This document shows positions 8,152 to 51,938 of a DNA stretch of 64,000 nt, piece after piece. Below the pieces are notes generated by a model, which worked only from the letters and a program-made list of their open reading frames with translations, did not search any database and had not been told where the DNA came from. The stretch spans positions 124,001 to 188,000 of the forward strand of contig NZ_JAUPED010000006.1 of assembly GCF_030552475.1 (NCBI RefSeq). Direction: 5' to 3'. A program made the translations under genes and the position numbers. The stretch is from Mariniflexile sp. AS56 (GTDB taxonomy: Bacteria; Bacteroidota; Bacteroidia; Flavobacteriales; Flavobacteriaceae). How positions within the stretch are numbered: the stretch's first letter is position 1; the number at the start of each line of letters is the position of its first letter.

Positions 8152-10710
8152 ATGAAAAACAGATTATCACAAATCAGCTTATTGTCACTAGTTTTATTTT
8201 GTTTAAGTTGTAAATCTTTAATAGAAAAAAAGGTTGATATAGACACGACTGTTAAGATTGATAAAGGAGAAATAACTTCAGTTTCTGGAACAAGAAATAT
8301 AAGCGGTGTTTACCCACATTTAACAACGTATGCACATGCAAGAGGAAACGGCAGCTATAGTTTTGGAAATGAATGCGGAATTGGAGCCTTGGCTGTTTGG
8401 AATGAAAAATTGTATATGATTAATTATGCAGCACATGAGCCAAAAGGAAGTGAGCACAAACTGTATATTATCGATAAAGATAATAATATGCAGGTTTTTC
8501 AAGGTAGTATTGGTGGTACACCAGCAGCTAGAATGATACATCAAGAATCGAATCAATTACTTATTGGTCCTTATGTTGTTAGTAGTTCTGGAGACGTACG
8601 AGTTATTCCAATTAAAGATATGAAAGGACGTTTAACAGCGATCGCAAGGCATTTAAAAGACCCAGAAAATATGGTTTACTATTATGATATGGAAGGCATG
8701 TTGTACGAGGTAAATGTAAATACTCTGAATGTAAAAAAGCTATACAATAATCCGTTGCCAGGTTGGCATGGAAAAGGCGCCTATACAAGTCAAAATAAAT
8801 TAATATTGGCAAATAATGGCGAGCATGGAAACGAAAGCGGAGCGGAGTGGAAAGTTACTCTAGAAAATAAAAACAACAAAGAAGATAATGGAATTTTAGC
8901 CGAGTTTGATGGAGATAATTTTAAAATAGTAGAAAGAAGACAGTTTACAGATGTTACCACTAAGAACGGAATAAACGCAGAGCCAAATGATCAATCTCCA
9001 TTGTGGGCAATGGGATGGGATAAAAGATCGATACGATTGAAGGTACTTGAAAAAGGAGAGTGGAAAACTTTTTTATTACCTAAAGCTACTTATAATAATG
9101 ATCCTTCTCACGGTTGGTTTACAGAGTGGCCAAGAATTAGAGAAATTGGTAACGGAAAAATGATGATGGACATGCATGGGATGTTTTATGATTTCCCATC
9201 AACGTTTTCTCATGCGAAAACTTCAGGAATCAAACCAATAGGCTCCCATTTACGCTATATACCCGATTTTTTAAGCTGGAACAATAAGGTCGTTTTAGCC
9301 ACAGATGAAACAAGTATACAAGGAAATCCTTTAGCAGGTCAGCCACAATCTAATCTTTGGTTTGGTAAACGTGAAGAATTGGCGAACTGGGGACCAAAAT
9401 CCGCTTATGGAGCAATTTGGATCAATGATGAGGTTATTGCGAATCAACCTTCACTTCCTTTTTTAATTGCTGGTTTTGATAACAGAATTTTACATTTAAA
9501 TAATTTTGATAAAATGCCAGTTACAATTACCATTCATGTTGATGAAGATGGAACAGGGAACTGGAAAGAATTACAAACGGTAGCATTAGAAAAAGAAGGC
9601 TATAATTATTATATTTTTAAGAAGGATTTAAAAGTAGAATGGGTACGATTGGTTGCTGATAAAACCAGTAAATTAACTGCTGCTTTTCATTTTACAGATC
9701 GTAAACTTAAAAATAGTACTGCAGGAAAAGAGTTGTTTAAAAGTCTTGCAGATGTAGATGAAACTGCAGAAGTATCCCATGCAAAACTATTTAGTAATAA
9801 AACCAATTATAATTTAAGCGTTTATGCAGGAGAAATAGACAATGACACCTTTAAAACCACAAAATTATATGAGTTTTTAAAGTATGATTTTAGGTATGTA
9901 GATGGTATAAAAGATAGTTTGTCAATAAACGCTTTAAAGAATAAAAAAGTTGGAGAAGAAGTTGATTTTTTTAATAAAAATGTAGCAAGTACTTCGGAAG
10001 GAAAAGAAATTCAAAAAGAGATTTGGTCAGAAGATGATGCATCTGTCATAGTACATGCAAAAGAGTATCAATTAAGGTTACCAAAAGGACATGCCGATTA
10101 TTCAAGACAATTTTCAGCAAAAACAGCACGAGTAACCAGAGAAGTTGAATCCGAAAGAGAGTTGGCAAATATTTCGGGTACATTTTATGAGCTACCGCTA
10201 TATAAAGTAGGTAAAGAACCTTTATATAAAATGATGCGACCTGTTGCAACACACAATAAACAAATTACTGAGTTTAATACTTGGAATGGTTTATTGGTTT
10301 TAAGTGGAGTAAAGAAAGACGCAAAAGAGTCAGACCACGTTTATAAATCTGATGATGGTAACGTGGCTCTTTGGTTTGGAGGTATTGACGATTTATGGAG
10401 TTTTGGAAAGCCAGTAGGAGAAGGTGGTCCATGGAAAAACACTCAAGTAAAAGCAAACCAATTATCTGATATGTATTTGATGACCGGTTATGACGAAAAA
10501 ACAGTAGTTTTTGAATCTGATGTGGATACGCAGTTTGATTTATACATTGATATAAATCATTATTCAGACGAGCCTGTTTTGTTTAAAACCTTTCAGATAA
10601 AAGCAGGTGAAAAATTAACTTATAAATTCCCCGAAGGATTTAGTGCACATTGGGTACAGCTAAATTCTAGTAGCGCTTGTAAAGCCACTGCATGGTTTGT
10701 TTATAAGTAA
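8152..10710 (+). CDS. Large lipoprotein of unknown function, possible beta-propeller
   Basis: I do not assign a family to this 852-residue protein. It has a lipobox (CLSC, lipidated Cys20) and no transmembrane segment afterwards. The N-terminal half is rich in short beta-type repeats with Tyr, Trp and Asn-Gly turns (YPHLTTYAHAR, ECGIGALAVW, LPGWHGKGAYTS, GWFTEWPRI), suggesting a propeller. A second region (about 440-500 and 780-850) looks like beta-sandwich, for example TITIHVDEDGTG and FDLYIDINHYSD. The N-terminal block resembles, from memory, proteins found beside sulfatases in planctomycetes; that is not checked. The gene follows GH2 by 100 bp in a sulfatase-rich cluster, so a role as a carbohydrate-active enzyme or binding protein is plausible. 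Confidence 0.75.
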   Translation: MKNRLSQISLLSLVLFCLSCKSLIEKKVDIDTTVKIDKGEITSVSGTRNISGVYPHLTTYAHARGNGSYSFGNECGIGALAVWNEKLYMINYAAHEPKGSEHKLYIIDKDNNMQVFQGSIGGTPAARMIHQESNQLLIGPYVVSSSGDVRVIPIKDMKGRLTAIARHLKDPENMVYYYDMEGMLYEVNVNTLNVKKLYNNPLPGWHGKGAYTSQNKLILANNGEHGNESGAEWKVTLENKNNKEDNGILAEFDGDNFKIVERRQFTDVTTKNGINAEPNDQSPLWAMGWDKRSIRLKVLEKGEWKTFLLPKATYNNDPSHGWFTEWPRIREIGNGKMMMDMHGMFYDFPSTFSHAKTSGIKPIGSHLRYIPDFLSWNNKVVLATDETSIQGNPLAGQPQSNLWFGKREELANWGPKSAYGAIWINDEVIANQPSLPFLIAGFDNRILHLNNFDKMPVTITIHVDEDGTGNWKELQTVALEKEGYNYYIFKKDLKVEWVRLVADKTSKLTAAFHFTDRKLKNSTAGKELFKSLADVDETAEVSHAKLFSNKTNYNLSVYAGEIDNDTFKTTKLYEFLKYDFRYVDGIKDSLSINALKNKKVGEEVDFFNKNVASTSEGKEIQKEIWSEDDASVIVHAKEYQLRLPKGHADYSRQFSAKTARVTREVESERELANISGTFYELPLYKVGKEPLYKMMRPVATHNKQITEFNTWNGLLVLSGVKKDAKESDHVYKSDDGNVALWFGGIDDLWSFGKPVGEGGPWKNTQVKANQLSDMYLMTGYDEKTVVFESDVDTQFDLYIDINHYSDEPVLFKTFQIKAGEKLTYKFPEGFSAHWVQLNSSSACKATAWFVYK

Positions 10711-26227: not shown

Positions 26228-28084
26228 ATGAAAAATTATATGTCCTGTTTTTTGTTTTTAATTCTCGTTAGTTCTTGTGGCGAGCAGAAAAACTCAGATC
26301 AAGTAACGCAGCAACAAAAAGCGATTGAGCATTTACCATTTACACAAATTGAACTCCAAAATCTTGATGCTTTTGAGCCAGTGACCGAAAACTGGACAAT
26401 TGTTGGAGATGCCGAGGTAGACCAATCTCTTCCTAAAAAAATAAAAGGGACTTCAGGAACCGGTGTTTTACTAAATATTCCAAAAAAAGGAAGTAGAAAA
26501 AATCTTTTTACCAATTTTGAACATGGTGATATCGAATTAGACTTGGATGTCATGATGCCTATAGGTTCTAATTCTGGAATTTATTTACAAGGAAGATATG
26601 AAATTCAACTTTTCGATAGCTGGAAGATAAAAGAACCTACATATTCTGATATGGGTGCTATTTACCAACGTTGGGACAAAACTGCAGAAAAAGGAAAACA
26701 AGGGTATGAAGGGCATCCTCCAGCTATAAATGCATCCAAAGCTCCTGGTTTATGGCAACATATTAAAATAAAGTTCTCTGCACCTACTTTTAATAAAGCA
26801 GGGAATAAAACTAAAAACGCAAAATTTGATGAAGTTTGGCTAAACGGCGTACTATTACATGAAAATATTGAAGTTACTGGACCAACTAGAGCCGCTGCCT
26901 TTGATACAGAAATCCCTATGGCTCCAATTATGATTCAAGGAGATCATGGTCCCGTTGCTTTAAAAAACATCAAATACAAATTGTATAAAAAACAGAATAT
27001 CACTTTTTCTGATTTGAATTTCAAGGAACACAATACTACCTACGAGGAAAAGATACCTAATTTAAACATGGTAGAGGAAAGTAAAAATGAGACTGTGAAA
27101 GCTATTTCTTTAGAAAATCTAAAAAGTAGAAGTTATAATAAAACGTTATTGTACACAGGAAAATTACATGTTCCAGAAACAGGTGAATATTTATTCAACT
27201 TTAAAGCAGATGGCGGGGGAATTGGTGTATTACTTATCAATAACGATACCATCAAATCTAATATTATGACCTTAACAAAAGAAGCACCTGTTCCTTTTTC
27301 TTTGGCCATCAGTAAAGCGAAACCTCTTATTGAACATTTTGAATTATCTTTTGAAGGACCTGGAATCAAAAAACAATCTTTGGATTCTAAATTGTCTTTA
27401 TCAGAAAAAACAATAAAGACAGACAAAAGCATGACCGTTAGCGCTAAAGAGGGGGCTATTGTTCAACGTAGTTTTTTAAGACATCATGGTGAGATTAGAA
27501 CACATTGTATTTCTGTAGGTACACCAGAAGGAATACATTATGCATATGACATGAACTTAGGTTCTTTATTATCTGTTTGGAGTGGCGACGACTTTTTTGA
27601 CGCCACGCTAATGTGGACTTCAAGAGGTGGAGAGCAGTTTGGAAGAACAGGAGCATTAACTATGCCTATGTTTGGTTACTCTGAATTCGCTTCACTAAAA
27701 GACAATAAGACTCCTTGGGTTTCCAAGAATGATGCTACAAAATTTATAGGTTATGATTTTGACAGTAATGGTCGTCCAATTTTTACCAATATTATAGAAG
27801 GAACAACCATTACAAATGAATTTTCTCCTATCGTAAAACACAGAGGAATCAATCGTAACATAACAACAAATGGAACCAAGGAACTATTCCATAAGATAAA
27901 TGAAGGGGAGTCTATTAAGTTGTTGAAAGATGGGACTTATATTATTAACAACGACAGCTATTTTGTCAAGTTCTCAAATAAAAATTCAATTAAACCATTT
28001 ATTCGGAAGTCGAATGGTAAGGAAGAACTTCTTGTAAAAATACCTAGTGGAAAACAGATTATTAATTATACTATTATTTGGTAA
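26228..28084 (+). CDS. DUF1080 (3-keto-disaccharide hydrolase type) plus PA14-like lipoprotein
   Basis: A 618-residue lipoprotein (lipobox VSSC, Cys17). Residues about 35-255 are a DUF1080/PF06439 jelly-roll: FEHGDIELDLDVMMP, SNSGIYLQGRYEIQLFDSW, GLWQHIKIKF and MIQGDHGPVALKNIKYKL. This domain is now linked to hydrolysis of 3-keto-glycosides. Residues about 300-400 look PA14-like (LLYTGKLHVPETGEYLF, ADGGGIGVLL). The last 200 residues have GTPEGIHYAYD and LWTSRGGEQFG type segments, seen from memory in planctomycete multidomain proteins. It stops 12 bp before the propeller-azurin gene, so the two are almost surely co-expressed. I infer a pair that oxidises and then cleaves a glycoside; the substrate is unknown. 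Confidence 0.8.
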   Translation: MKNYMSCFLFLILVSSCGEQKNSDQVTQQQKAIEHLPFTQIELQNLDAFEPVTENWTIVGDAEVDQSLPKKIKGTSGTGVLLNIPKKGSRKNLFTNFEHGDIELDLDVMMPIGSNSGIYLQGRYEIQLFDSWKIKEPTYSDMGAIYQRWDKTAEKGKQGYEGHPPAINASKAPGLWQHIKIKFSAPTFNKAGNKTKNAKFDEVWLNGVLLHENIEVTGPTRAAAFDTEIPMAPIMIQGDHGPVALKNIKYKLYKKQNITFSDLNFKEHNTTYEEKIPNLNMVEESKNETVKAISLENLKSRSYNKTLLYTGKLHVPETGEYLFNFKADGGGIGVLLINNDTIKSNIMTLTKEAPVPFSLAISKAKPLIEHFELSFEGPGIKKQSLDSKLSLSEKTIKTDKSMTVSAKEGAIVQRSFLRHHGEIRTHCISVGTPEGIHYAYDMNLGSLLSVWSGDDFFDATLMWTSRGGEQFGRTGALTMPMFGYSEFASLKDNKTPWVSKNDATKFIGYDFDSNGRPIFTNIIEGTTITNEFSPIVKHRGINRNITTNGTKELFHKINEGESIKLLKDGTYIINNDSYFVKFSNKNSIKPFIRKSNGKEELLVKIPSGKQIINYTIIW

Positions 28085-28096
28085 ATAAAAGACATT

Positions 28097-30052
28097 ATGA
28101 ACGTATTCACAAAAATCACAAGCCTCTTTTTTATACTAATAAATGTAGTGGCATTTGCACAAGAGAAATCTCTGATAGACATAAAAGAATCTGCATATTA
28201 TAAAATTGTAGATGTTCCAATTCCAAATGATGTTATGTTAGAGGTAGGTGGGTTAGCGATGACTGATGATGATAAACTTGGAGTCTCTACACGAAGAGGA
28301 GACGTTTGGTTGATTGACAAACCCTATAGTAAAACACCAATTTTCGGCAAGTTTGCTACAGGACTGCACGAACCACTAGGATTAGCTTTTAGAGATAACA
28401 GTTTTTACCTAACACAGAGAGGTGAATTAACACGTTTACAAGACAGGAACAATGATGGGAAAGTAGACTCGTTTAAAACAATTTATTCGTGGCCGCTATC
28501 AGGAAATTATCATGAATATTCATACGGGCCAAAATTCAAGAAAAATGGTGATATGATTGTTACTTTGAATCTAGGTTGGTCTGGTGGCGGAGTAAGTTTA
28601 ACTAAGTGGAGAGGCTGGATGTTACAAATTACTCCTGAAGGAGACATGACACCCATAGCAACAGGCTTAAGATCTCCTGCGGGTTTTGCTATCAACGATC
28701 AGGACGATTTATTTTATACTGAAAACCAAGGAGACTGGGTAGGTTCTGGTAGATTGACTCATTTAGAATCGGGAGATTTTGCTGGACATGTTGAGGGATT
28801 GAAATGGACAGACGATCCACAATCTCCATTAAAACTAAAAGTTGAAGATATTGAAGAGTTTTCAGGTTTGACACTTTATGAATATGCTAAAAAAATACCT
28901 GAACTAAAAGCACCTGCTATATGGTTTCCTCACACCGTATTAGGAATCTCTACTTCAGATATGTTATACCATAAAAAAGGCGTTGACTTTGGGCCTTTTG
29001 AAAATCAAATTTTTGTGGGTGACCAAGGACATAGTAAGATTATGCGTGTGTATATGGAAAAAGTAAATGGTGTATACCAAGGCGCTTCTTTTCCTTTTAA
29101 AGAAGGCTTTTCTTCTGGAATTTTAAGAATGATTTGGGGTAACGACTCTAGTATGTTTGTAGGAATGACGAGTAGAGGTTGGGCTTCTACAGGAAAAAAA
29201 GCATTTGGTTTACAACGATTAGAATGGACTGGAAAAACACCTTTTGAAATCAAAACCATGAAAGCCCAAGATGATGGCTTCCTGCTTGAATTCACAAAAC
29301 CCGTGAATAAAAAAACGGCAAGCGATATGGCTAGCTACAACATGATAAGCTTTACATATAAATATCATGTAACTTATGGAAGCCCTATAGAGCAAAAGCA
29401 AGATGCCATGGTACATGCCGCTATTGTTTCCGAGGATGGAAAAAGTGTAAAACTTTTGGTACATGGTATGCGTTTAGGGTTTATTCACCAATTAAGAGCA
29501 GATGGGGTAAAAGCTGCAAATGGAGAATCATTATTGCATAGTTCTGCTTATTATACCTTAAATGAAGTTCCTGGTGGTGTTTTAAAATCACCACAAATGC
29601 CTAAGATGCCAAAAGAAAATGAAAGTGTCAAGCAACCGAAACACACTTCGGAAATGCCTTTTACTTGGGATAATGGATCTGATAAAAAGCTGACTATCAG
29701 TACAAAACCTGGGATGAAATTCGATATTGAAGAATTAACAATTAAACGTAATACAAAATTAGAATTGACTTTTGTAAATGTTGATGATATGTTGCATAAT
29801 CTTGTGTTTGCTATGCCTGGTAAAGATGTCCCCAATACTTTAGGATTAAAAGCGCTTGAGCTTGGTTTAGATGCTCCTAAATACAATTATGTCCCTGATT
29901 CTTCATTGGTGTTATACCATACGGCTACAGTAGGACCTGAATCATCAGAAACTATATATTTTGAAATCCCTCGCAGAAAAGGCCAATATTGGATTGTATG
30001 TACTTTTCCCGGCCACTCTAATACTATGAAAATAAAAGTAAAGGTAATTTAA
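28097..30052 (+). CDS. Sugar-dehydrogenase-like propeller fused to an azurin-type copper domain
   Basis: A 651-residue exported protein (signal ending AFA-QE). Residues about 30-400 resemble the glucose/sorbosone dehydrogenase-like propellers: EVGGLAMTDDDKLGVSTRRGDVW, LHEPLGLAF, RSPAGFAINDQDDLFYTENQGDW and FVGDQGHSKIMR. The C-terminal 110 residues are an azurin-like cupredoxin. His567 (MLHNLVF), Cys635, His640 and Met644 (CTFPGHSNTM) match azurin's CTFPGHSALM ligand loop with the same spacing, so all four type 1 copper ligands are present. The propeller should be an electron donor domain and the copper site an acceptor. Quinone (PQQ) ligands are not provable by eye. Its neighbour carries a DUF1080 domain, 12 bp upstream. 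Confidence 0.82.
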   Translation: MNVFTKITSLFFILINVVAFAQEKSLIDIKESAYYKIVDVPIPNDVMLEVGGLAMTDDDKLGVSTRRGDVWLIDKPYSKTPIFGKFATGLHEPLGLAFRDNSFYLTQRGELTRLQDRNNDGKVDSFKTIYSWPLSGNYHEYSYGPKFKKNGDMIVTLNLGWSGGGVSLTKWRGWMLQITPEGDMTPIATGLRSPAGFAINDQDDLFYTENQGDWVGSGRLTHLESGDFAGHVEGLKWTDDPQSPLKLKVEDIEEFSGLTLYEYAKKIPELKAPAIWFPHTVLGISTSDMLYHKKGVDFGPFENQIFVGDQGHSKIMRVYMEKVNGVYQGASFPFKEGFSSGILRMIWGNDSSMFVGMTSRGWASTGKKAFGLQRLEWTGKTPFEIKTMKAQDDGFLLEFTKPVNKKTASDMASYNMISFTYKYHVTYGSPIEQKQDAMVHAAIVSEDGKSVKLLVHGMRLGFIHQLRADGVKAANGESLLHSSAYYTLNEVPGGVLKSPQMPKMPKENESVKQPKHTSEMPFTWDNGSDKKLTISTKPGMKFDIEELTIKRNTKLELTFVNVDDMLHNLVFAMPGKDVPNTLGLKALELGLDAPKYNYVPDSSLVLYHTATVGPESSETIYFEIPRRKGQYWIVCTFPGHSNTMKIKVKVI

Positions 30053-30298: not shown

Positions 30299-32809
30299 AT
30301 GTTAAAATTAAAAAACAGTTTTTTATTTCTTCCATTTTTTTTATTTGTTACTCAAACACATGCACAGTATTTGTGGTACGAAAACGAGACAGATACTGAG
30401 AACGTTTTATTCACAAACAGCAGCTCAGGCACTTTTACTACACATGAAACCAATCCAAACAGTAATGGAGCAAATGCAAATGTATTATGTTCTAAATTTG
30501 TTAGAGATGCATCGGTAAGTAAAGGTTTTACTTATTTTGATTTATCAAATCCTATTGAAACCGCTATAGAATATACCGTAAGTCTTAAGGGCTATATTGA
30601 TGTTAAGCAAAATAAATTATCATCTAGCCCTAACAAGTTACGCGTGTATTTAAAAAACACAACTACTGGAGATATTAAATATAAACAGATAGATTTTACA
30701 GTAGGCAAAGACTGGGAAAACTTTTCTTTTGTTTTTGACACAACCGATTTCACGACAAGTGGATTGGGTAGTGGCGGTTATAATCAAATGTACATTGGTT
30801 ATGGCAATGGGATTTCATCAGACAAGGAAATAACCTATTTTATAGATCAAATTAATGGTACTACAGATCAAACGGTTATTAATACAACTCCAATATCGCT
30901 TCAAGGCTCTTGGGGTGCTCGTTTATATGTGAGAGCAGGTGAAACTCTAGATGATTATGTTAAGCCTATTTCTGAAGGGGGTAAAGGCTATAATTATTTA
31001 GCAGGAGCTCAAGAAATAATAAGTAGCTACCCTACTATGGGGCATGTTATAACAAACGCGACTAACAATGCAAAATCATTTTTATGGACTCTAAGAACAA
31101 ACGAAAATGTAGATGCTGTAAAGGGAGCTTCAGGTTCTATTATAGATGAAGAATTTGTACCTAGCTTAGCGAATGAACAAGTTATTATTGATGTCATCAA
31201 CGAGTTTAAAAGTGCAAATAAAAAAGTGATTTTGTACTTAAACGGAATGAGCCCTGCAGATAGAGCTTCAATAACAGGAGCTCAATCATGGAATGACTAT
31301 GTTGCTCAATATTTCTCTAATAACGAACATGCAGCATGGATGAATTTCTGTGAAGGTTACATAAAACGTTTTGAGGCACTAGGAGTAGATGGCTATTGGA
31401 TAGATGCCTTTGGTAGTTATCCAGGTAATGATATTGAAAGAGCCGAATTTATTCAAATGATTCGTAATGTAGATCCAAATGTGATGATATCAGCCAACTA
31501 TGATAAAGATTATTTTGCAGATATTAATGGCGATTTTATAAAAGTTGATACTGATGGCGTTGAAGACGCTGATGAAACTGATTATAAAATAGTCAAGCTC
31601 ACAGCTATGGATCCTTGGTCAGATATGACTGGAGGACATATAACTCCTCTAGGTCAAGGAGCACCTCCTAATTCTTGGGCATACGAGGAATTTACAGTAC
31701 CTGATATTCAAGCATCAGCAACATCGTCTTATGATGGTACTAAACAAACAGTAAAACATTTATTCTTGCCCATAAGATCAACTTGGTCTAGTGAAAGATC
31801 TGATTTAATGTTTGAAGGAGAACAAGCCTACAGATTTGTAAAAAAGATTACAGATGCTGGTGGAGCCGTTACTTTTTCAACGACGACAGATACAGACGGT
31901 ACTACCATGGAAGATGAAGAAACGGTATTGAAATTTGTAGATCAACAACTAGCAGCCAATGCAGCAGCTTCACAATATGTTCGTCTTTTAGGCGCTTTTC
32001 TTGTTGGAGAAGAACAAATATTTCCATGGTATGAAAATGAAGAAGACACAGCAACAGACTATATTACAGTAGAAAGTTCGTTAGATGGTATTACTACAGA
32101 AAATTTTTCTAACCCATCTAAAACAGGAATCAATACCAGTAATACAGTTGCTAAATTTGTTAGAGATGGAGGAACAACAGCTAGAATTTACTATAGTTTA
32201 CCAAAACCTATTACAGAGCTTTCATCACTTAAGATTACTTTAGATGCCTTCATAGATCAGAGTAATCCATCTAACGTAGATACTAGGATTCGAGTTTTTC
32301 TGCTAAACACGACCTTAAATACGAGAATCTTCGAACAATTAACGTTGTCCGCGGGGCAAACTTGGGAGAATTTAGTGTTTGACTTTAGTGCTCAAGGTAC
32401 TTATCCTGACGGCTATGATCAAATGGCAATAGGCTTCGCAAATGGAGATTCATCGGGAGCTACTACCATGTATTATATCGATAATGTAAAAGGATCCACT
32501 AATCAATACCTTATTGGGTCAAGTAGTGGGTTAGCAATAACCTCTACGAGTGCTATTCGGACTGAAGGATCTAAGCTGGAACAGGACAAATCACTATTAA
32601 AAATATATCCAAACCCAGTAAAAAATTCTTTTAAAATGTCTAAAGAATTCAAATCCGTATCCATTTACTCCATAACTGGTGAAAAATTACTAGAATTTTC
32701 TGGAAATCAAAGTAGTTATGATGTTTCCAATCTAGATACTGGATTTTATATACTTAGAACTAATGATAATAAAGGAGGGAATGAAGTACTTAGATTTATA
32801 AAAAAATAA
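30299..32809 (+). CDS. Type IX-secreted TIM-barrel glycoside hydrolase, possible endo-fucanase
   Basis: An 836-residue secreted protein with a signal ending HAQ. A barrel domain (about 200-570) contains YIKRFEALGVDGYWIDAFGSYPG, whose Asp is a likely nucleophile by similarity to GH29 and GH107 type barrels, and ISANYDKDYF. Two similar beta-sandwich modules flank it: residues about 24-195 (LWYENETDTENVLF … SKFVRD) and about 577-745 (PWYENEEDTATDYI … AKFVRD). The last 80 residues are a type IX sorting tail (IYPNPVKNSF … GFYIL … VLRFIKK), so it is delivered to or beyond the outer surface. That suits an initial polymer cutter. The family is not certain; it could also be an exo-enzyme. Confidence 0.75.
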   Translation: MLKLKNSFLFLPFFLFVTQTHAQYLWYENETDTENVLFTNSSSGTFTTHETNPNSNGANANVLCSKFVRDASVSKGFTYFDLSNPIETAIEYTVSLKGYIDVKQNKLSSSPNKLRVYLKNTTTGDIKYKQIDFTVGKDWENFSFVFDTTDFTTSGLGSGGYNQMYIGYGNGISSDKEITYFIDQINGTTDQTVINTTPISLQGSWGARLYVRAGETLDDYVKPISEGGKGYNYLAGAQEIISSYPTMGHVITNATNNAKSFLWTLRTNENVDAVKGASGSIIDEEFVPSLANEQVIIDVINEFKSANKKVILYLNGMSPADRASITGAQSWNDYVAQYFSNNEHAAWMNFCEGYIKRFEALGVDGYWIDAFGSYPGNDIERAEFIQMIRNVDPNVMISANYDKDYFADINGDFIKVDTDGVEDADETDYKIVKLTAMDPWSDMTGGHITPLGQGAPPNSWAYEEFTVPDIQASATSSYDGTKQTVKHLFLPIRSTWSSERSDLMFEGEQAYRFVKKITDAGGAVTFSTTTDTDGTTMEDEETVLKFVDQQLAANAAASQYVRLLGAFLVGEEQIFPWYENEEDTATDYITVESSLDGITTENFSNPSKTGINTSNTVAKFVRDGGTTARIYYSLPKPITELSSLKITLDAFIDQSNPSNVDTRIRVFLLNTTLNTRIFEQLTLSAGQTWENLVFDFSAQGTYPDGYDQMAIGFANGDSSGATTMYYIDNVKGSTNQYLIGSSSGLAITSTSAIRTEGSKLEQDKSLLKIYPNPVKNSFKMSKEFKSVSIYSITGEKLLEFSGNQSSYDVSNLDTGFYILRTNDNKGGNEVLRFIKK

Positions 32810-32903: not shown

Positions 32904-33034
32904 TTTATATAGTTATAGTCTGTTATCAGGCTAAAAAAAATAAATTTGGAAAAGGGTTTCCATGAACCAATCATATATAGGTTTAGTTTAGCACATTCCG
33001 TCTATGTGTGTCTCAATCAAATAAAAACAAAAAC

Positions 33035-34231
33035 ATGAATAAGACATTTTTATTTTACACTTCCATATATATTGTCGTTACTTTTTGGTCTTGTGTAATA
33101 GCGCAAAATACGAATCTAATAAGTGATGGAAGTGCATTTGAAGTTAAAGCATTTTACCCTAAATTTAGTTGGGATACAACACCTATGTACTACATGTTTG
33201 GTGACCCAAAAAGAGTACTGCTTCCAGAAGAAGTAGCGCACATTGCAAAAAGAACAGATTTTATATGTATTGAGAAATCACATGGTGAAGCACAATTAGG
33301 AGCTGCAGAATTAGGGGCAAAGCATGAGGTGGCAACTTTTAAGAAAGTGAAACCAGAGATGAAAGTGCTTTTCTATTTCAACTCGGCATACGCATGGCCA
33401 TTTACATCATATAATAAAGCTTTTGTACAAAAAAAGATAGATCAACATCCCGAACTTAAAAAATTTCTAATAGTCGATCCAGAAACTAAAGAACTTGCAA
33501 AGCGCGGAAGCACCTACTTTTTCGATGTTTTAAACCCAGAGTTTCGCGATTGGTGGGTAAATACAGTCGCCAAAGGGGTTGAGTTTTCTGGGGCCGATGG
33601 TGCCTTTATAGACCAAATGCACGGGTTTTCTTGGTTACGTCAGGATAGAAGTAAAGAGGTGCAAAAAGCCATGGGAGACATGATGACTGCCTTAAAAACG
33701 AAATTGGGACCCGATAAAATTCTATTAGGAAATAATGCGCATACCAAATCGGCACAATATGTTTTTCCTGTGATAGATGCAAATATGTTTGAGCATTATA
33801 GTAACGACCTATTAAGTAAAGAAAAACTCCTTCAAGATTGGGAAGATATGCTTCGAATTGCCAAAGCTGGAAAAATGTCAATATTTCGTATCGGCGTGGA
33901 GTATGATTCGGTAACAGTAGCAAACGAAGAATTTTATAAAGGCAAAATGCGTAATGAACGATTTGCTGCGCTTTCAAAAGAAAAAATAGAATATTACCAT
34001 GCCTGTTATTTAATAGGCGCTCAACCTTATTCTTATTTTCAATATGGTTGGGGCTGGCAATTGGCACATGGGTCTTTATTAGATTATCCAGAATTGGAAA
34101 AACCACTTGGAAAACCTAAAGGATCTTTTGTGAGAAAGTCGGCCGATTCATGGGAATTTACACGTCATTTTGAACATGCCTCGGTTTGGGTTAATACGGA
34201 AACAGGAAAAGCTCACATATCGTGGTATTAA
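33035..34231 (+). CDS. Unassigned TIM-barrel glycoside hydrolase-like protein, paralogue A
   Basis: A 398-residue exported protein (signal ending VIA-QN) related to the genes at 40934 and 50766. Shared signatures are FSWDTTPMY near the start, KVLFYFNSAYAW, GADGAFIDQMHGF with a conserved D-G-x-F-x-D element at the end of a probable barrel strand, NMFEHYSND with a conserved Glu-His, and FEHASVWV before the end. The pattern fits a TIM-barrel hydrolase, perhaps the hypothetical GHL15 group, with Asp in FID and Glu in FEH as catalytic candidates. I use the ATG at 33035; a GTG at 33008 is in frame. It precedes two sulfatases. Function is not proven. Confidence 0.75.
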   Translation: MNKTFLFYTSIYIVVTFWSCVIAQNTNLISDGSAFEVKAFYPKFSWDTTPMYYMFGDPKRVLLPEEVAHIAKRTDFICIEKSHGEAQLGAAELGAKHEVATFKKVKPEMKVLFYFNSAYAWPFTSYNKAFVQKKIDQHPELKKFLIVDPETKELAKRGSTYFFDVLNPEFRDWWVNTVAKGVEFSGADGAFIDQMHGFSWLRQDRSKEVQKAMGDMMTALKTKLGPDKILLGNNAHTKSAQYVFPVIDANMFEHYSNDLLSKEKLLQDWEDMLRIAKAGKMSIFRIGVEYDSVTVANEEFYKGKMRNERFAALSKEKIEYYHACYLIGAQPYSYFQYGWGWQLAHGSLLDYPELEKPLGKPKGSFVRKSADSWEFTRHFEHASVWVNTETGKAHISWY

Positions 34232-38708: not shown

Positions 38709-39467
38709 TTACCGTGTATATTCGTCTTTAAAATATTTTAATTCATTTGATGATGATTTTCCTATAGATTTTGCAATTTCCTTTTCATCTTTCATTCGCA
38801 TCAATTCAAAATTTAATGTATTTAAATTTAGTGCATCTCCTTCATATACTTTATTTAAAAGGTTTTCTAAATATTGATTGTTTTCAGGATTTTGTTTGGT
38901 ACAGATTTCTTCAAAAAGGGTGTGTTTAAATAATGTAAAGTTATACAGGTCTCTTAAAATAACCTTATCGACATAACGGTTGTATAATTCCCATCTGTTT
39001 TCGTCAACTTTTATCATAAGGTTTACTTGCGTATATAAGCCATATCCTCTACCTGGAACCTCAGTATGTGACCAAGACTTTACCCAACAGTATTGTTTAT
39101 TGTCATATTCAAAATACATTTCCTGTATAAGATCAGAATAATGTTTATCTCTATCAACAGTTGCTCTTCTCTTAAACCATTCTTTTCTAGCTTCACTAAT
39201 TGGCAAATTTTTATTGTAATGATTTAACCTGCTCCATTCTACAGAATTTTCAGAAGCAAGTGAATTTAATAATTCTTTAGGTGTTCTGTTTTTTGCTTGT
39301 TTAATATCCTTATATAATTTTTTAATCTTTATTGAAGGATTGTATGTAACCAGCTTTACATTTTTAATTTGAGATGAGGTGGTAAGTCTCACATTATGAC
39401 TCGTGTTTTGAGAATATGTAAAGAATCCTAGTATCAAAAAACTGTATTTTATTAGTTTTAAAATCAT
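38709..39467 (-). CDS. Exported protein of unknown function
   Basis: I do not recognise this 252-residue protein. It begins with a hydrophobic signal ending FTYS-QN and is then polar and rich in Lys, Asn and Tyr. KQYCWVKSWSHTEVPGRGYG in the middle is the only cysteine-containing motif of note, and the second half (ENRWELYNRYVDK, LNFELMRMKDEKEIA) looks helical. No enzyme motif is visible. It lies 68 bp before the CarboxypepD_reg-like gene in transcription order reversed (both minus strand), and the pair may be co-transcribed. Nothing links it to sugar use, and with the broken gene next to it, it may be a separate insertion. Confidence 0.6.
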   Translation of the reverse strand: MILKLIKYSFLILGFFTYSQNTSHNVRLTTSSQIKNVKLVTYNPSIKIKKLYKDIKQAKNRTPKELLNSLASENSVEWSRLNHYNKNLPISEARKEWFKRRATVDRDKHYSDLIQEMYFEYDNKQYCWVKSWSHTEVPGRGYGLYTQVNLMIKVDENRWELYNRYVDKVILRDLYNFTLFKHTLFEEICTKQNPENNQYLENLLNKVYEGDALNLNTLNFELMRMKDEKEIAKSIGKSSSNELKYFKDEYTR

Positions 39468-40933: not shown

Positions 40934-42076
40934 CTATTTCCAATCTATTTTAGCGTCTTTGGTGTCAAGGTTAACCCAAACAGAAGCGTGCTCGAATTCA
41001 CGGGTTAGTATCCAACCATTTACTTTCATATCGTGTAATGGTTTACCTAAGTGTTTATCAAATTCAGGATACCAATCTGTTGCTCCATGTTCAAAACGGT
41101 AACCCCAATTGTATATGAAATAGGAGTTTTCTTGAGCACCGACTAAAAATGAAGCTAATGGAAATGTGATGTTTTCTTTAGATATTTTTTGCTTTTCTTT
41201 TAAAGGTTTCGCCATGAAATCTTTGTCTATCCAAGCATATCCAGGCCATCCTTTAAAAACAACAATTTTTCCTGTTTTTCCAGCTTTTTCCATTTCCAGT
41301 ATGTCTTGAAGCATGCTTTCTTTGGAATGACTTTGGATTATGCCAAAATGCTCAATCATTACAGCATCGGTGTTATCCGGGAAGTTATTTCCAACATTTC
41401 TATTGGGAGTACTTCGTATGCCGTTATAAACTATGAGCTTGTCATTTCCAAGAGCAATTCTGGTCTCAGCTATTAACTTTTTTAAGCCGTCTAAAATGCT
41501 ATTATATTTCGTTTCTCCCCAAAATTCAATATTGGCAGGATTTGTTACTTGAATAAACGCATCCATGAAAACACCATCGGTAGAACCTTTAGTGATTTCA
41601 TTTTTTGCCGTTTCAACCCACCATTTTCTTACTGCTGGATTGGACAAATCATAGCGTTTTATTTTTTCGTTTTTTAGATCAAGTTTTCCGTCCTTAGTTT
41701 TTAGCCACCATTCGGGGTGATTTGTGTAAACATCATGTGCTTCATACATGGAGTAATCTAAAAAGGCATTCCAATAGAAAATAACTTTCATATCTGGATT
41801 GAATCGCTTTAATTTTTTAGCGTCGGCCTCAATACCCATTTCTGTGTTTTTATATGTAGGAAGCCCATGTCCCTTTTCTAAAACAATAAAATTGGAACGG
41901 GATGTAATAAATTTTGCCTCATCGTTGGTTAATGCGCCGTTTTTTCCAAAATGAAATGCAATGGGAACTTTATCCCAATTGAATTTTGGAAAGGCTTGGT
42001 TTGTTTGACTTGTAGATTGATAACAAATAAACAAGATCAACGCATTAATTACAATTTTGACAGAAGTACGTTTCAT
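40934..42076 (-). CDS. Unassigned TIM-barrel glycoside hydrolase-like protein, paralogue B
   Basis: A 380-residue exported protein (signal ending STS-QT) of the same family as 33035 and 50766. It shows FNWDKVPIAFHF, KVIFYWNAFLDY, STDGVFMDAFIQV with the conserved D-G-x-F-x-D, MIEHFGI with Glu-His, and FEHASVWV near the end. It is the last gene of the minus-strand operon susC-susD-GH29, with only three bases between the GH29 stop and its start, so it is almost surely made with the transport system. This strongly suggests a role on oligosaccharides taken in by SusCD. The family, linkage and mechanism are unknown. Confidence 0.78.
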   Translation of the reverse strand: MKRTSVKIVINALILFICYQSTSQTNQAFPKFNWDKVPIAFHFGKNGALTNDEAKFITSRSNFIVLEKGHGLPTYKNTEMGIEADAKKLKRFNPDMKVIFYWNAFLDYSMYEAHDVYTNHPEWWLKTKDGKLDLKNEKIKRYDLSNPAVRKWWVETAKNEITKGSTDGVFMDAFIQVTNPANIEFWGETKYNSILDGLKKLIAETRIALGNDKLIVYNGIRSTPNRNVGNNFPDNTDAVMIEHFGIIQSHSKESMLQDILEMEKAGKTGKIVVFKGWPGYAWIDKDFMAKPLKEKQKISKENITFPLASFLVGAQENSYFIYNWGYRFEHGATDWYPEFDKHLGKPLHDMKVNGWILTREFEHASVWVNLDTKDAKIDWK

Positions 42077-50765: not shown

Positions 50766-51938
50766 ATGAATTATAACAACGTTTATTTAGTACTACTAGC
50801 CATACTATCTGTGGGCTGCAGTGCTGCTCAAATTCAAGACACTGGAAAACTTCCAGAATTTTCTTGGGACACGATGCCCTTATACATGCATGTGCGTAAA
50901 GACGATGCTTTTACTAAGGATGAAATTAAATATATATCAAAATACCCTTTAGTAACTTTTGAGAAAACAACGGGTAGCAAAACATTTGGCTCTACCGAAA
51001 AAGGAACTATCGAAGCAGCAAAAGAGGTTAAGAAATTGAATCCTAAGACTAAAATTATTTATTACAAAAATGTAGTAATCAATTGGAGTACTTATGCAGA
51101 AGATGAAGCATTTTTGAAAAAGAATCCTGATGCCTTATTAGTAAATGATAAAGGGCAAAAAGTTTTTATGTCAAATGGAAAGACAGGTTATTTTGACCTT
51201 AGCAAAGATTACGTTCGTTCGTACTGGTTGAATCATGTGAAAAAAGAAACCGACAGTCCTTATATTGACGGAGTCTTTCTAGATGCCAATATCAAAGTAT
51301 TAGTTCCTGGTTTTTTTAATAGTAAAGTAGGGGCTAAAAAACAAAAGGAATTAGAAGCGGGTTACTTTAAGATGATGGCAGATTTAAAAGCGGGTGTAGG
51401 TAAGGATAATATACTTTTGGCTAATATATTACGTGTTCGTCCAGAGTTTAAAGACGTAGGAAGAGAATACTTGAAATATTTTGATGGTACGTACCTTGAA
51501 GGATTTGAGCACGAAAGTTTTGGTATGACGTATGCAGAGTACGTTTCTAAGGGAATTGAAGCTTTTCAAAAATCAGCTAAAGAAGGGAATATAGTAGCTA
51601 TGTCTATAGGACTTGGTGAGGGAGAAGATGGAGAAGTAAAAGGAATAGATGACAAAAGAAAAGCAGTTAAGTCAAACGAAAACTTTAAGGAGCGTTTGGA
51701 TTACGTGTTAGCTATCTTTCTAGTTTGTGCCGAAAAACACAGTTATGTCTATCCTCACGACGGTTATAATAGTAAAACATCATCTGTTTGGTTAAAGTCA
51801 TTTCCGCAGTATGAAAATAAATTAGGAGCACCTAAAGGCCCTGCAGTACGCACCGGCTATGTCTATAAAAGGTCATTTGAACATTTAGATGTCACCCTAG
51901 ATATTGAAAATAAAACAGCAAAACTAAACTGGAAATAA
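50766..51938 (+). CDS. Unassigned TIM-barrel glycoside hydrolase-like lipoprotein, paralogue C
   Basis: A 390-residue lipoprotein (lipobox SVGC, Cys18), third member of the family at 33035 and 40934. It keeps FSWDTMPLYMH, KIIYYKNVVINW, YIDGVFLDANIKV with D-G-x-F-x-D, GFEHES with Glu-His, and SFEHLDVTLD at the end, but is more divergent, lacking the HG after the EK element near residue 70. It is the only lipidated copy, the others having plain signals. It lies between a GH29 and a sulfatase in a tight operon (32 and 20 bp gaps). Function is not established. Confidence 0.75.
   Translation: MNYNNVYLVLLAILSVGCSAAQIQDTGKLPEFSWDTMPLYMHVRKDDAFTKDEIKYISKYPLVTFEKTTGSKTFGSTEKGTIEAAKEVKKLNPKTKIIYYKNVVINWSTYAEDEAFLKKNPDALLVNDKGQKVFMSNGKTGYFDLSKDYVRSYWLNHVKKETDSPYIDGVFLDANIKVLVPGFFNSKVGAKKQKELEAGYFKMMADLKAGVGKDNILLANILRVRPEFKDVGREYLKYFDGTYLEGFEHESFGMTYAEYVSKGIEAFQKSAKEGNIVAMSIGLGEGEDGEVKGIDDKRKAVKSNENFKERLDYVLAIFLVCAEKHSYVYPHDGYNSKTSSVWLKSFPQYENKLGAPKGPAVRTGYVYKRSFEHLDVTLDIENKTAKLNWK

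Follow-up and report, generated by a model that had tools for sequence, protein, structure and literature searches.

Bacteria can cut glycosides by oxidizing them first. To our knowledge, few oxidizing partners are known for the cutters of the DUF1080 family. Here we describe a concrete, clonable candidate for such a partner that occurs in many Bacteroidota: a pair of adjacent genes, P1 and P2, from Mariniflexile sp. AS56, lying in a 64,000-nucleotide stretch of contig NZ_JAUPED010000006.1 (positions 124,001 to 188,000; the window). P1 encodes a DUF1080 lipoprotein ending in a C-terminal domain (CTD) without annotation, and P2 encodes a propeller protein ending in a cupredoxin. On balance, we think it probable that the pair is a two-gene periplasmic dehydrogenase, made up of CTD, propeller and electron carrier, with DUF1080 as a frequent cleaving add-on.

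Dehydrogenases combined with DUF1080 are of a known kind, and so are propeller dehydrogenases with a fused electron carrier. LacABC, which we take to be a GMC-type dehydrogenase, is not a propeller, whereas P2 holds its own carrier and has DUF1080 on its partner P1. What the pair shares with LacABC, the lactose 3-dehydrogenase of Caulobacter and others, is sugar oxidation in the periplasm by a dehydrogenase of several parts, together with a nearby gene for a DUF1080 protein, which for LacABC is proposed to cleave the 3-keto sugar (PMC9007349). The fungal pyranose dehydrogenase (AA12 plus AA8) likewise fuses a quinoprotein propeller to a one-electron carrier; here the carrier is a b-type cytochrome, and the accessible part of PMC6881789 names no CTD or DUF1080 partner. 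The soluble PQQ-type glucose dehydrogenase (sGDH) and Asd proteins (1c9u, 2g8s, 3a9g, 3das) share the propeller fold, but P2 has an extra beta domain, a copper domain and a constant CTD partner. Similarly, the 3-keto-glycoside eliminase/hydratases of the BT2157 type (8rr2, 9fbe, 8tda) have the fold and family of the P1 DUF1080 domain, which is nearer to 4qhz, is fused to PA14 and CTD and is linked to a propeller gene. The same kinds of modules, including a related propeller, recur in single-chain Bacteroidota proteins (L155, L156, L158) ordered cytochrome c, PA14, propeller, DUF1080. These differ from the pair in being one chain, in having cytochrome c replace the cupredoxin and in placing DUF1080 at the far end. 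We found no description of such single-chain proteins in the literature searched. Judged by title and the start of the abstract, none of the matches listed described a propeller with a CTD partner and interchangeable copper or heme carriers, in a search that left most subscription papers outside. Among the matches listed, no paper joined auracyanin with DUF1080 or named DUF6797, DUF7133 or PF20601. Similar fusions presumably occur in Planctomycetes and Verrucomicrobia.

Both genes lie on the plus strand, where the stop of P1 (26228..28084, 618 aa) is separated by 12 bp from the ATG of P2 (28097..30052, 651 aa). The first-pass annotation, made from the sequence alone, had given these coordinates and this spacing, and had described P1 as a DUF1080/PA14 lipoprotein and P2 as a propeller of sugar dehydrogenase look with a full azurin-like site; each of these descriptions was borne out. 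P1, which has homologs in loci L008-L066, begins with a lipoprotein signal peptide (26228..26278), read from the sequence, that ends at Cys17 in a lipobox-like VSSC. A Cys lies near this place in only 20/28 partner rows (alignment A1, manual count), so not all partners are lipoproteins. The DUF1080 (3keto-disac_hyd) domain spans aa 54-249 (26387..26974) and is well over the Pfam cut-off (PF06439, E 3.7e-22, 79.7 bits versus 26.8). A PA14 match follows at aa 271-332 (27038..27223), just below its cut-off (23.5 bits versus 24), within a region of the P1 model (about residues 261-387; mean pLDDT of the model 85.9) that matches the VIA structure 6qe7 (Z 11.4). The CTD, overlooked by the earlier annotation, makes up the last ~210 residues (aa 406-618; 27443..28081). 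P2 opens with a likely signal peptide (aa 1-21, ending in VVAFA before Gln; 28097..28159), and its AlphaFold2 model (mean pLDDT 87.5) resolves into a propeller (aa 31-380; 28187..29236), a further, mostly beta domain with many invariant columns in alignment A2 (aa 381-497; 29237..29587) and a cupredoxin (aa 528-651; 29678..30049).

The CTD is the constant part of the pair. Scanning genome contigs with P2 yielded 59 loci from Flavobacteriaceae, Algoriphagus, Pedobacter, Larkinella, Balneolaceae and others, and in 59/59 the gene directly upstream of the propeller gene, on the same strand, encodes a homolog of the CTD (query: the C-terminal 218 residues of P1). The gaps are mostly 21 bp or less, or the genes overlap; they are wider in L036 (87 bp) and L059 (367 bp). 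These are not 59 independent events, since close relatives are included (8 Algoriphagus, 8 Pedobacter-type and 5 Zobellia loci). In a separate sample of 345 Bacteroidota genomes, 30 encode the CTD and the same 30 encode a strong propeller match (>600 bits); another 8 hold nothing beyond weaker relatives of the propeller, with open frames 919-1239 aa long. The CTD adjoins 39 of the 40 strong propeller copies; the lone exception is in G198, a genome with an unpaired CTD gene elsewhere. Scoring was limited to the top few candidates in each genome, so extra propeller copies may have been missed. The survey for the same neighbor pair that the first-pass annotation had proposed finds the two genes linked well beyond this genome.

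It could be argued that P1 and P2 are merely co-transcribed and have no joint mechanism, and indeed the physical contact between them is something that we infer. The constant gene order, the identical genome distribution, the occurrence of the carrier on either protein (see below) and the single-chain relatives all speak against this, and we consider it extremely improbable. Nine longer proteins were matched by the propeller in two stretches, and we fetched six of these (L155-L160, open frames of 983-1239 aa). All six contain a CxxCH motif and a related propeller, five have PA14 by a custom profile and three end in DUF1080; Pfam finds cytochrome c, PA14 and DUF1080 in both proteins that we scanned, L155 and L158. 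The earlier proposal of an oxidize-then-cleave pair thus stands insofar as the pair is real, given the linkage, the shared genomes and the single-chain relatives; DUF1080 as an essential partner and a fucan setting as the general one are not supported.

The origin of the CTD can be suggested only tentatively. Fold searches with the P1 model returned DUF1080 and generic beta-rich rows, including some unrelated toxins, and were uninformative on this domain. Among 21 CTDs, none matches DUF6797 (PF20601) over the cut-off and 3 match at E <=0.1 (best 0.038), the window's CTD not being one of these 3. By profile comparison, the CTD has a weak likeness to the N-terminal region of the single-chain relatives (probability 25.8%, E 7.3e-4 by hhalign). 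DUF6797 itself is matched below cut-off by L158 and, at E 0.01, not by L155, the two single-chain proteins that we scanned; a related 919-aa protein in L161 matches it over cut-off. The CTD may therefore be remotely DUF6797-like.

The nearest structures to the P2 propeller are redox enzymes. The top six PDB rows (2ism, Z 28.4; 3a9g, 28.1; 7cgz, 27.3; 7cdy, 27.1; 3das, 26.6; 2g8s, 26.4) are sugar dehydrogenases, or putative ones, of the pyrroloquinoline quinone (PQQ) type, and Foldseek agrees. The next row is the fungal AA12 enzyme (Z 23.8). Pfam did not match P2 to PF07995 (GSDH) at E 0.1, a profile-profile comparison gave only a remote match to it (E 4.7e-5, probability 68%), and the sole propeller-type Pfam match, DUF7133, is below its cut-off (22.5 versus 27); sequence profiles alone would thus have missed the identity of the propeller. 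Searching PDB sequences with a profile of the propeller returned chance matches only.

We assessed the electron carriers across 103 distinct propeller open reading frames (ORFs) scoring >300 bits, using custom profiles; 2 identical copies were dropped, and the window pair and single-chain relatives were not counted. The P2 cupredoxin is matched by Copper-bind (PF00127, aa 536-650, 29.3 bits versus a cut-off of 21.2) and resembles auracyanins in Foldseek (6kol, TMt 0.87; 1qhq, 0.79). It scores far below the cut-off of the NCBIfam azurin equivalog (27.6 versus 105.1 bits), so the domain is cupredoxin-like and not azurin proper. The predicted copper ligands His567 (29795..29797) and Cys635, His640 and Met644 (29999..30028) are all present, Cys635 being the only Cys in P2, and all four are kept in 81/81 cupredoxins of the main family and 6/6 of a sister family. 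While 81 of the 103 ORFs carry a cupredoxin, 14 have a cytochrome c in its place, with CxxCH and a following Met in 14/14, and 8 have no carrier. These 8 comprise the 6 sister-family propellers together with L060 and L065, which are truncated or broken. In 5 of the 6 sister-family loci, the carrier-less propeller instead follows an upstream protein in which a cupredoxin precedes a stretch that weakly matches the CTD (28-45 bits); in the sixth, L151, the upstream protein has a cupredoxin and LamG, with no CTD detected.

A quick maximum-likelihood tree, built from 108 propellers and having long branches and many weak forks, puts the cytochrome c propellers in two places, one of 11 rows (support 99) and one of 3 rows (support 95), and the latter adjoins copper-bearing Pedobacter rows. 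A single clade of all 14 is rejected, if modestly, as the group was defined after the tree was seen (approximately unbiased test, p 0.032). On the tree, the carrier state must have changed three times or more, counting the lack of a carrier in the sister family as one change, leaving L060 out of the count and the single-chain rows unlabeled. The intact copper ligands, together with the cytochrome c that takes the same place in other copies, indicate that the propeller hands over electrons, and a redox use of the propeller is well supported. The exchange of copper and heme at one place, with the carrier on the partner in the sister family, is a natural experiment in electron-path rewiring.

Some individual loci vary this theme. 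The Mariniflexile genome itself has a second pair (L110, G000:C47:34959-37864), in which a 473-aa DUF1080-CTD protein precedes a propeller ending in cytochrome c (CVACH). It also has an unfused version, a free 181-aa cupredoxin ORF beside a 745-aa DUF7133 propeller ORF (L164, G000:C49:126422-128170). Conversely, a 1179-aa protein (L163:3590-7126) fuses ThuA, DUF7133, HEAT repeats and a copper-binding domain. The propeller gene of L065 (7026-8926) is split over two overlapping frames of a metagenome-assembled contig, either an assembly error or a broken gene. The L060 contig is filed under Thalassovita, yet it falls beside Flammeovirgaceae in the propeller tree (support 90), so it may be a mis-binned Bacteroidota contig.

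We next considered the cofactor site, transferring the ligand places of sGDH to P2 via 15 Bacteroidota GSDH proteins and aligning representatives of the main family (19), the sister family (6) and the single-chain relatives (6). We take Arg228, Asn229, Gln246, Gly247, Pro248 and Arg406 to be the numbers of the further sGDH ligands. His144, Lys377 and Arg408 are named in PMC6881789. As in the sGDH and Asd proteins, P2 keeps the equivalents of Arg228 (R192, in all rows), Gln246 (Q211), Gly247 (G212) and one of the two C-terminal Arg (R344; 17/19 main, 6/6 sister and 6/6 single-chain rows). A PQQ-like pocket in P2 is thus plausible on these residues. The first-pass annotation had suggested modeling the propeller and looking for PQQ ligands; the fold of a PQQ-type sugar dehydrogenase did emerge, whereas the residues are only partly kept, so PQQ is not established as the cofactor of P2. 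The biosynthetic marker pqqC was over cut-off in 0/345 genomes, with weak matches in 26 (none among the 30 pair genomes); the positive control was silent (nothing in 14 control genomes or 4 locus-derived genomes, and nothing over cut-off in 29 genomes of another order), so absence is not shown and we made no use of the result.

The missing ligands are among the points that weigh against reading the pair as a dehydrogenase with a cleaving add-on. Asn229, Pro248 and Lys377 are replaced in P2 by S193, D213 and G311; across the aligned rows, Asn229 gives way to Ser or Thr, Pro248 mainly to Asp and Lys377 mainly to Gly, Asn or Thr. The catalytic His is one column off (H139, with E140 in the column), a placement by MAFFT that is itself uncertain by one column; H139 is kept in 19/19 main and 6/6 single-chain rows, and 2/6 sister rows have Ala. 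Those solved propeller relatives with known activity oxidize free sugars, presumably at C1 and not C3. DUF1080 was undetected in 15 CTD-encoding loci (8 Pedobacter-type loci, L143, 5 of the sister family and L137, truncated by the end of its contig), and cleavage therefore cannot be the core function. Finally, we found no activity, substrate or interaction data on the pair. With regard to the ligands, the fungal AA12 enzyme is likewise described without an equivalent of Lys377 (PMC6881789).

The same residues bear on a second explanation, in which the propeller is not redox at all but a metal-dependent hydrolase, lactonase or isomerase, and the carriers serve another acceptor. Propellers of the SMP30, DFPase and lactonase kinds follow the sugar dehydrogenases in the fold searches at Z ~23, several PQQ ligands are missing, and a metal site is possible given that every aligned row of the three subfamilies keeps Q107, E110, R192 and an acidic residue at 140. 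Two unrelated one-electron carriers in the same place, the two separate cytochrome c clades and the transfer of the carrier to the partner in the sister family are nevertheless hard to explain without electron flow, and we regard a non-redox propeller as quite improbable.

The place of DUF1080 in the pair is less constant than that of the CTD. It was found by tblastn in 51/59 loci; in the other 8, all of Pedobacter type, the partner consists of a CTD 244-262 aa long. Among the partners of the 103 propeller ORFs, 79 are DUF1080-PA14-CTD, 9 are CTD alone (one of these being the cut L137), 6 are DUF1080-CTD, 5 are cupredoxin-CTD, 1 is PA14-CTD and 1 is a cupredoxin without CTD; none was found for 2 (L113 and a piece of L065). 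A carrier-bearing putative dehydrogenase is therefore encoded with DUF1080 in most, not all, copies. We rejected DUF1080 as an obligate partner on its absence from the 8 Pedobacter-type loci, L143 and the sister family.

Where it is present, the domain looks like an intact member of its family. Residues 33-254 of the P1 model match DUF1080 structures, first 4qhz (Z 20.7) and then, among others, 9fbe (18.5), 8v31 (17.1), 8rr2 (16.9) and 8tda (16.8); the depositors' names for the latter four are 3-keto-glycoside eliminase/hydratase or 3-keto-2-hydroxy-glucal hydratase. Compared with 8 other matched regions of its own genome and 2 fused domains, the P1 domain keeps the positions that are most conserved (N115, S116, G117, E125, Q127, W176, N206 and Q237) and departs at some common ones (Trp to Phe49, Glu to Leu175, Asn to Gln177). 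Cleavage of 3-keto-glycosides by P1 is a putative activity, by analogy with these relatives. Elsewhere in the genome, a 459-aa protein (G000:C23:229646-230947) carries two DUF1080 domains in tandem, of which the first shares 46% identity with that of P1.

A different role for DUF1080 follows if P2 is simply a soluble PQQ-type dehydrogenase of aldoses, one that bears a carrier domain, oxidizes C1 and makes lactones from free sugars, while DUF1080 and PA14 merely bind glycans and keep the enzyme at its substrate. The nearest folds to the propeller are sugar dehydrogenases that presumably oxidize C1. Lower in its list of fold matches, DUF1080 also resembles lectins and binding modules such as CBM66, and the sister-family partner in L151 carries LamG. 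The dispensability of DUF1080 and the departures at Phe49, Leu175 and Gln177 point the same way. Against a mere binding role, P1 keeps the positions that are most conserved in other DUF1080 domains, and the single-chain relatives again join DUF1080 to a carrier and a propeller, in a different order. We regard this C1 explanation as unlikely, if a serious contender.

In line with a dehydrogenase that has DUF1080 as an add-on, we propose that P1 and P2 would form a self-contained oxidoreductase, periplasmic or attached to the membrane. The propeller of P2, of the soluble quinoprotein type, would oxidize a carbohydrate with a bound cofactor and pass electrons singly to its own copper domain, or to heme in other copies, which in turn would reduce a respiratory-chain acceptor in the periplasm. 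P1 would be the anchored partner, its CTD serving as an obligate subunit of the propeller that docks it or completes the active site. Its N-terminal DUF1080 domain, a frequent add-on, would cleave the oxidized glycoside by the 3-keto route of elimination and hydration, in which case C3 would be the carbon oxidized. The electron-transfer role is suggested because the carriers exchange and by their position, and the cleavage role by knowledge of the DUF1080 family, the LacABC precedent and the single-chain relatives.

More speculatively, the pair may represent a further class of glycoside 3-dehydrogenase, in which a copper- or heme-wired propeller with an obligate CTD oxidizes bound glycosides for DUF1080, possibly with a cofactor other than PQQ. 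We find this extension possible, if somewhat doubtful. If true, it would add a respiration-linked route of glycan cleavage in Bacteroidota to the NAD-dependent and LacABC types. The built-in copper or heme is a spectroscopic reporter, which would allow direct screening of substrates.

The surroundings of the pair in Mariniflexile fit a locus for a fucose-rich sulfated glycan. The window contains 12 sulfatases, 4 GH29 fucosidases, 3 GHL15 genes, a SusC/SusD pair and an L-fucose catabolic set of fucose isomerase, class II aldolase and FGGY kinase. The pair sits among these genes, and could accordingly be a device for degrading fucan or sulfated fucose in such loci. Support elsewhere is scattered. 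Across 96 loci, profiles derived from the window find sulfatases in 14, GH29 in 3, SusD-like proteins in 8 and SusC-like proteins in 16. The partner is the sole widely shared neighbor of the propeller, the next largest cluster occurring in 13 loci. The 20 nearest neighbors, from 16 of the 96 loci, are mixed: they include one sulfatase, one GH95, GH92, SusD, Gfo/Idh and TonB receptors, together with HlyIII, a carboxyl transferase, an enoyl-CoA hydratase, P450, AcrB, symporters and a peptidase. Distant genes of polysaccharide utilization loci could be missed given the limited flanks (mean locus 16 kb). On these neighbors, we rejected a fucan device as the general role and regard it as very improbable. 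The pair is instead a self-standing unit, sometimes near carbohydrate genes and here inside a fucan-type locus.

Several neighbors of the pair and its relatives deserve mention. In Pedobacter zeae (L058:6412-8667), a gene of GH95, which we take to be a fucosidase family, lies just upstream of a CTD-only pair, a possible fucose link outside fucan loci. A DUF7133 protein (L025:12042-15086) has homologs in the flanks of 11/96 loci, and a free azurin-like protein is found in 7/96, hinting at an island of oxidation genes. Within the window, three proteins, at 8152-10710 (852 aa), 30299-32809 (836 aa, with a secretion tail) and 38709-39467 (252 aa), have no catalytic Pfam match at E 1e-5 and are possible enzymes. 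The three copies of the uncharacterized GHL15 family (33008-34231, 40934-42076 and 50766-51938) are likewise found together in this one locus.

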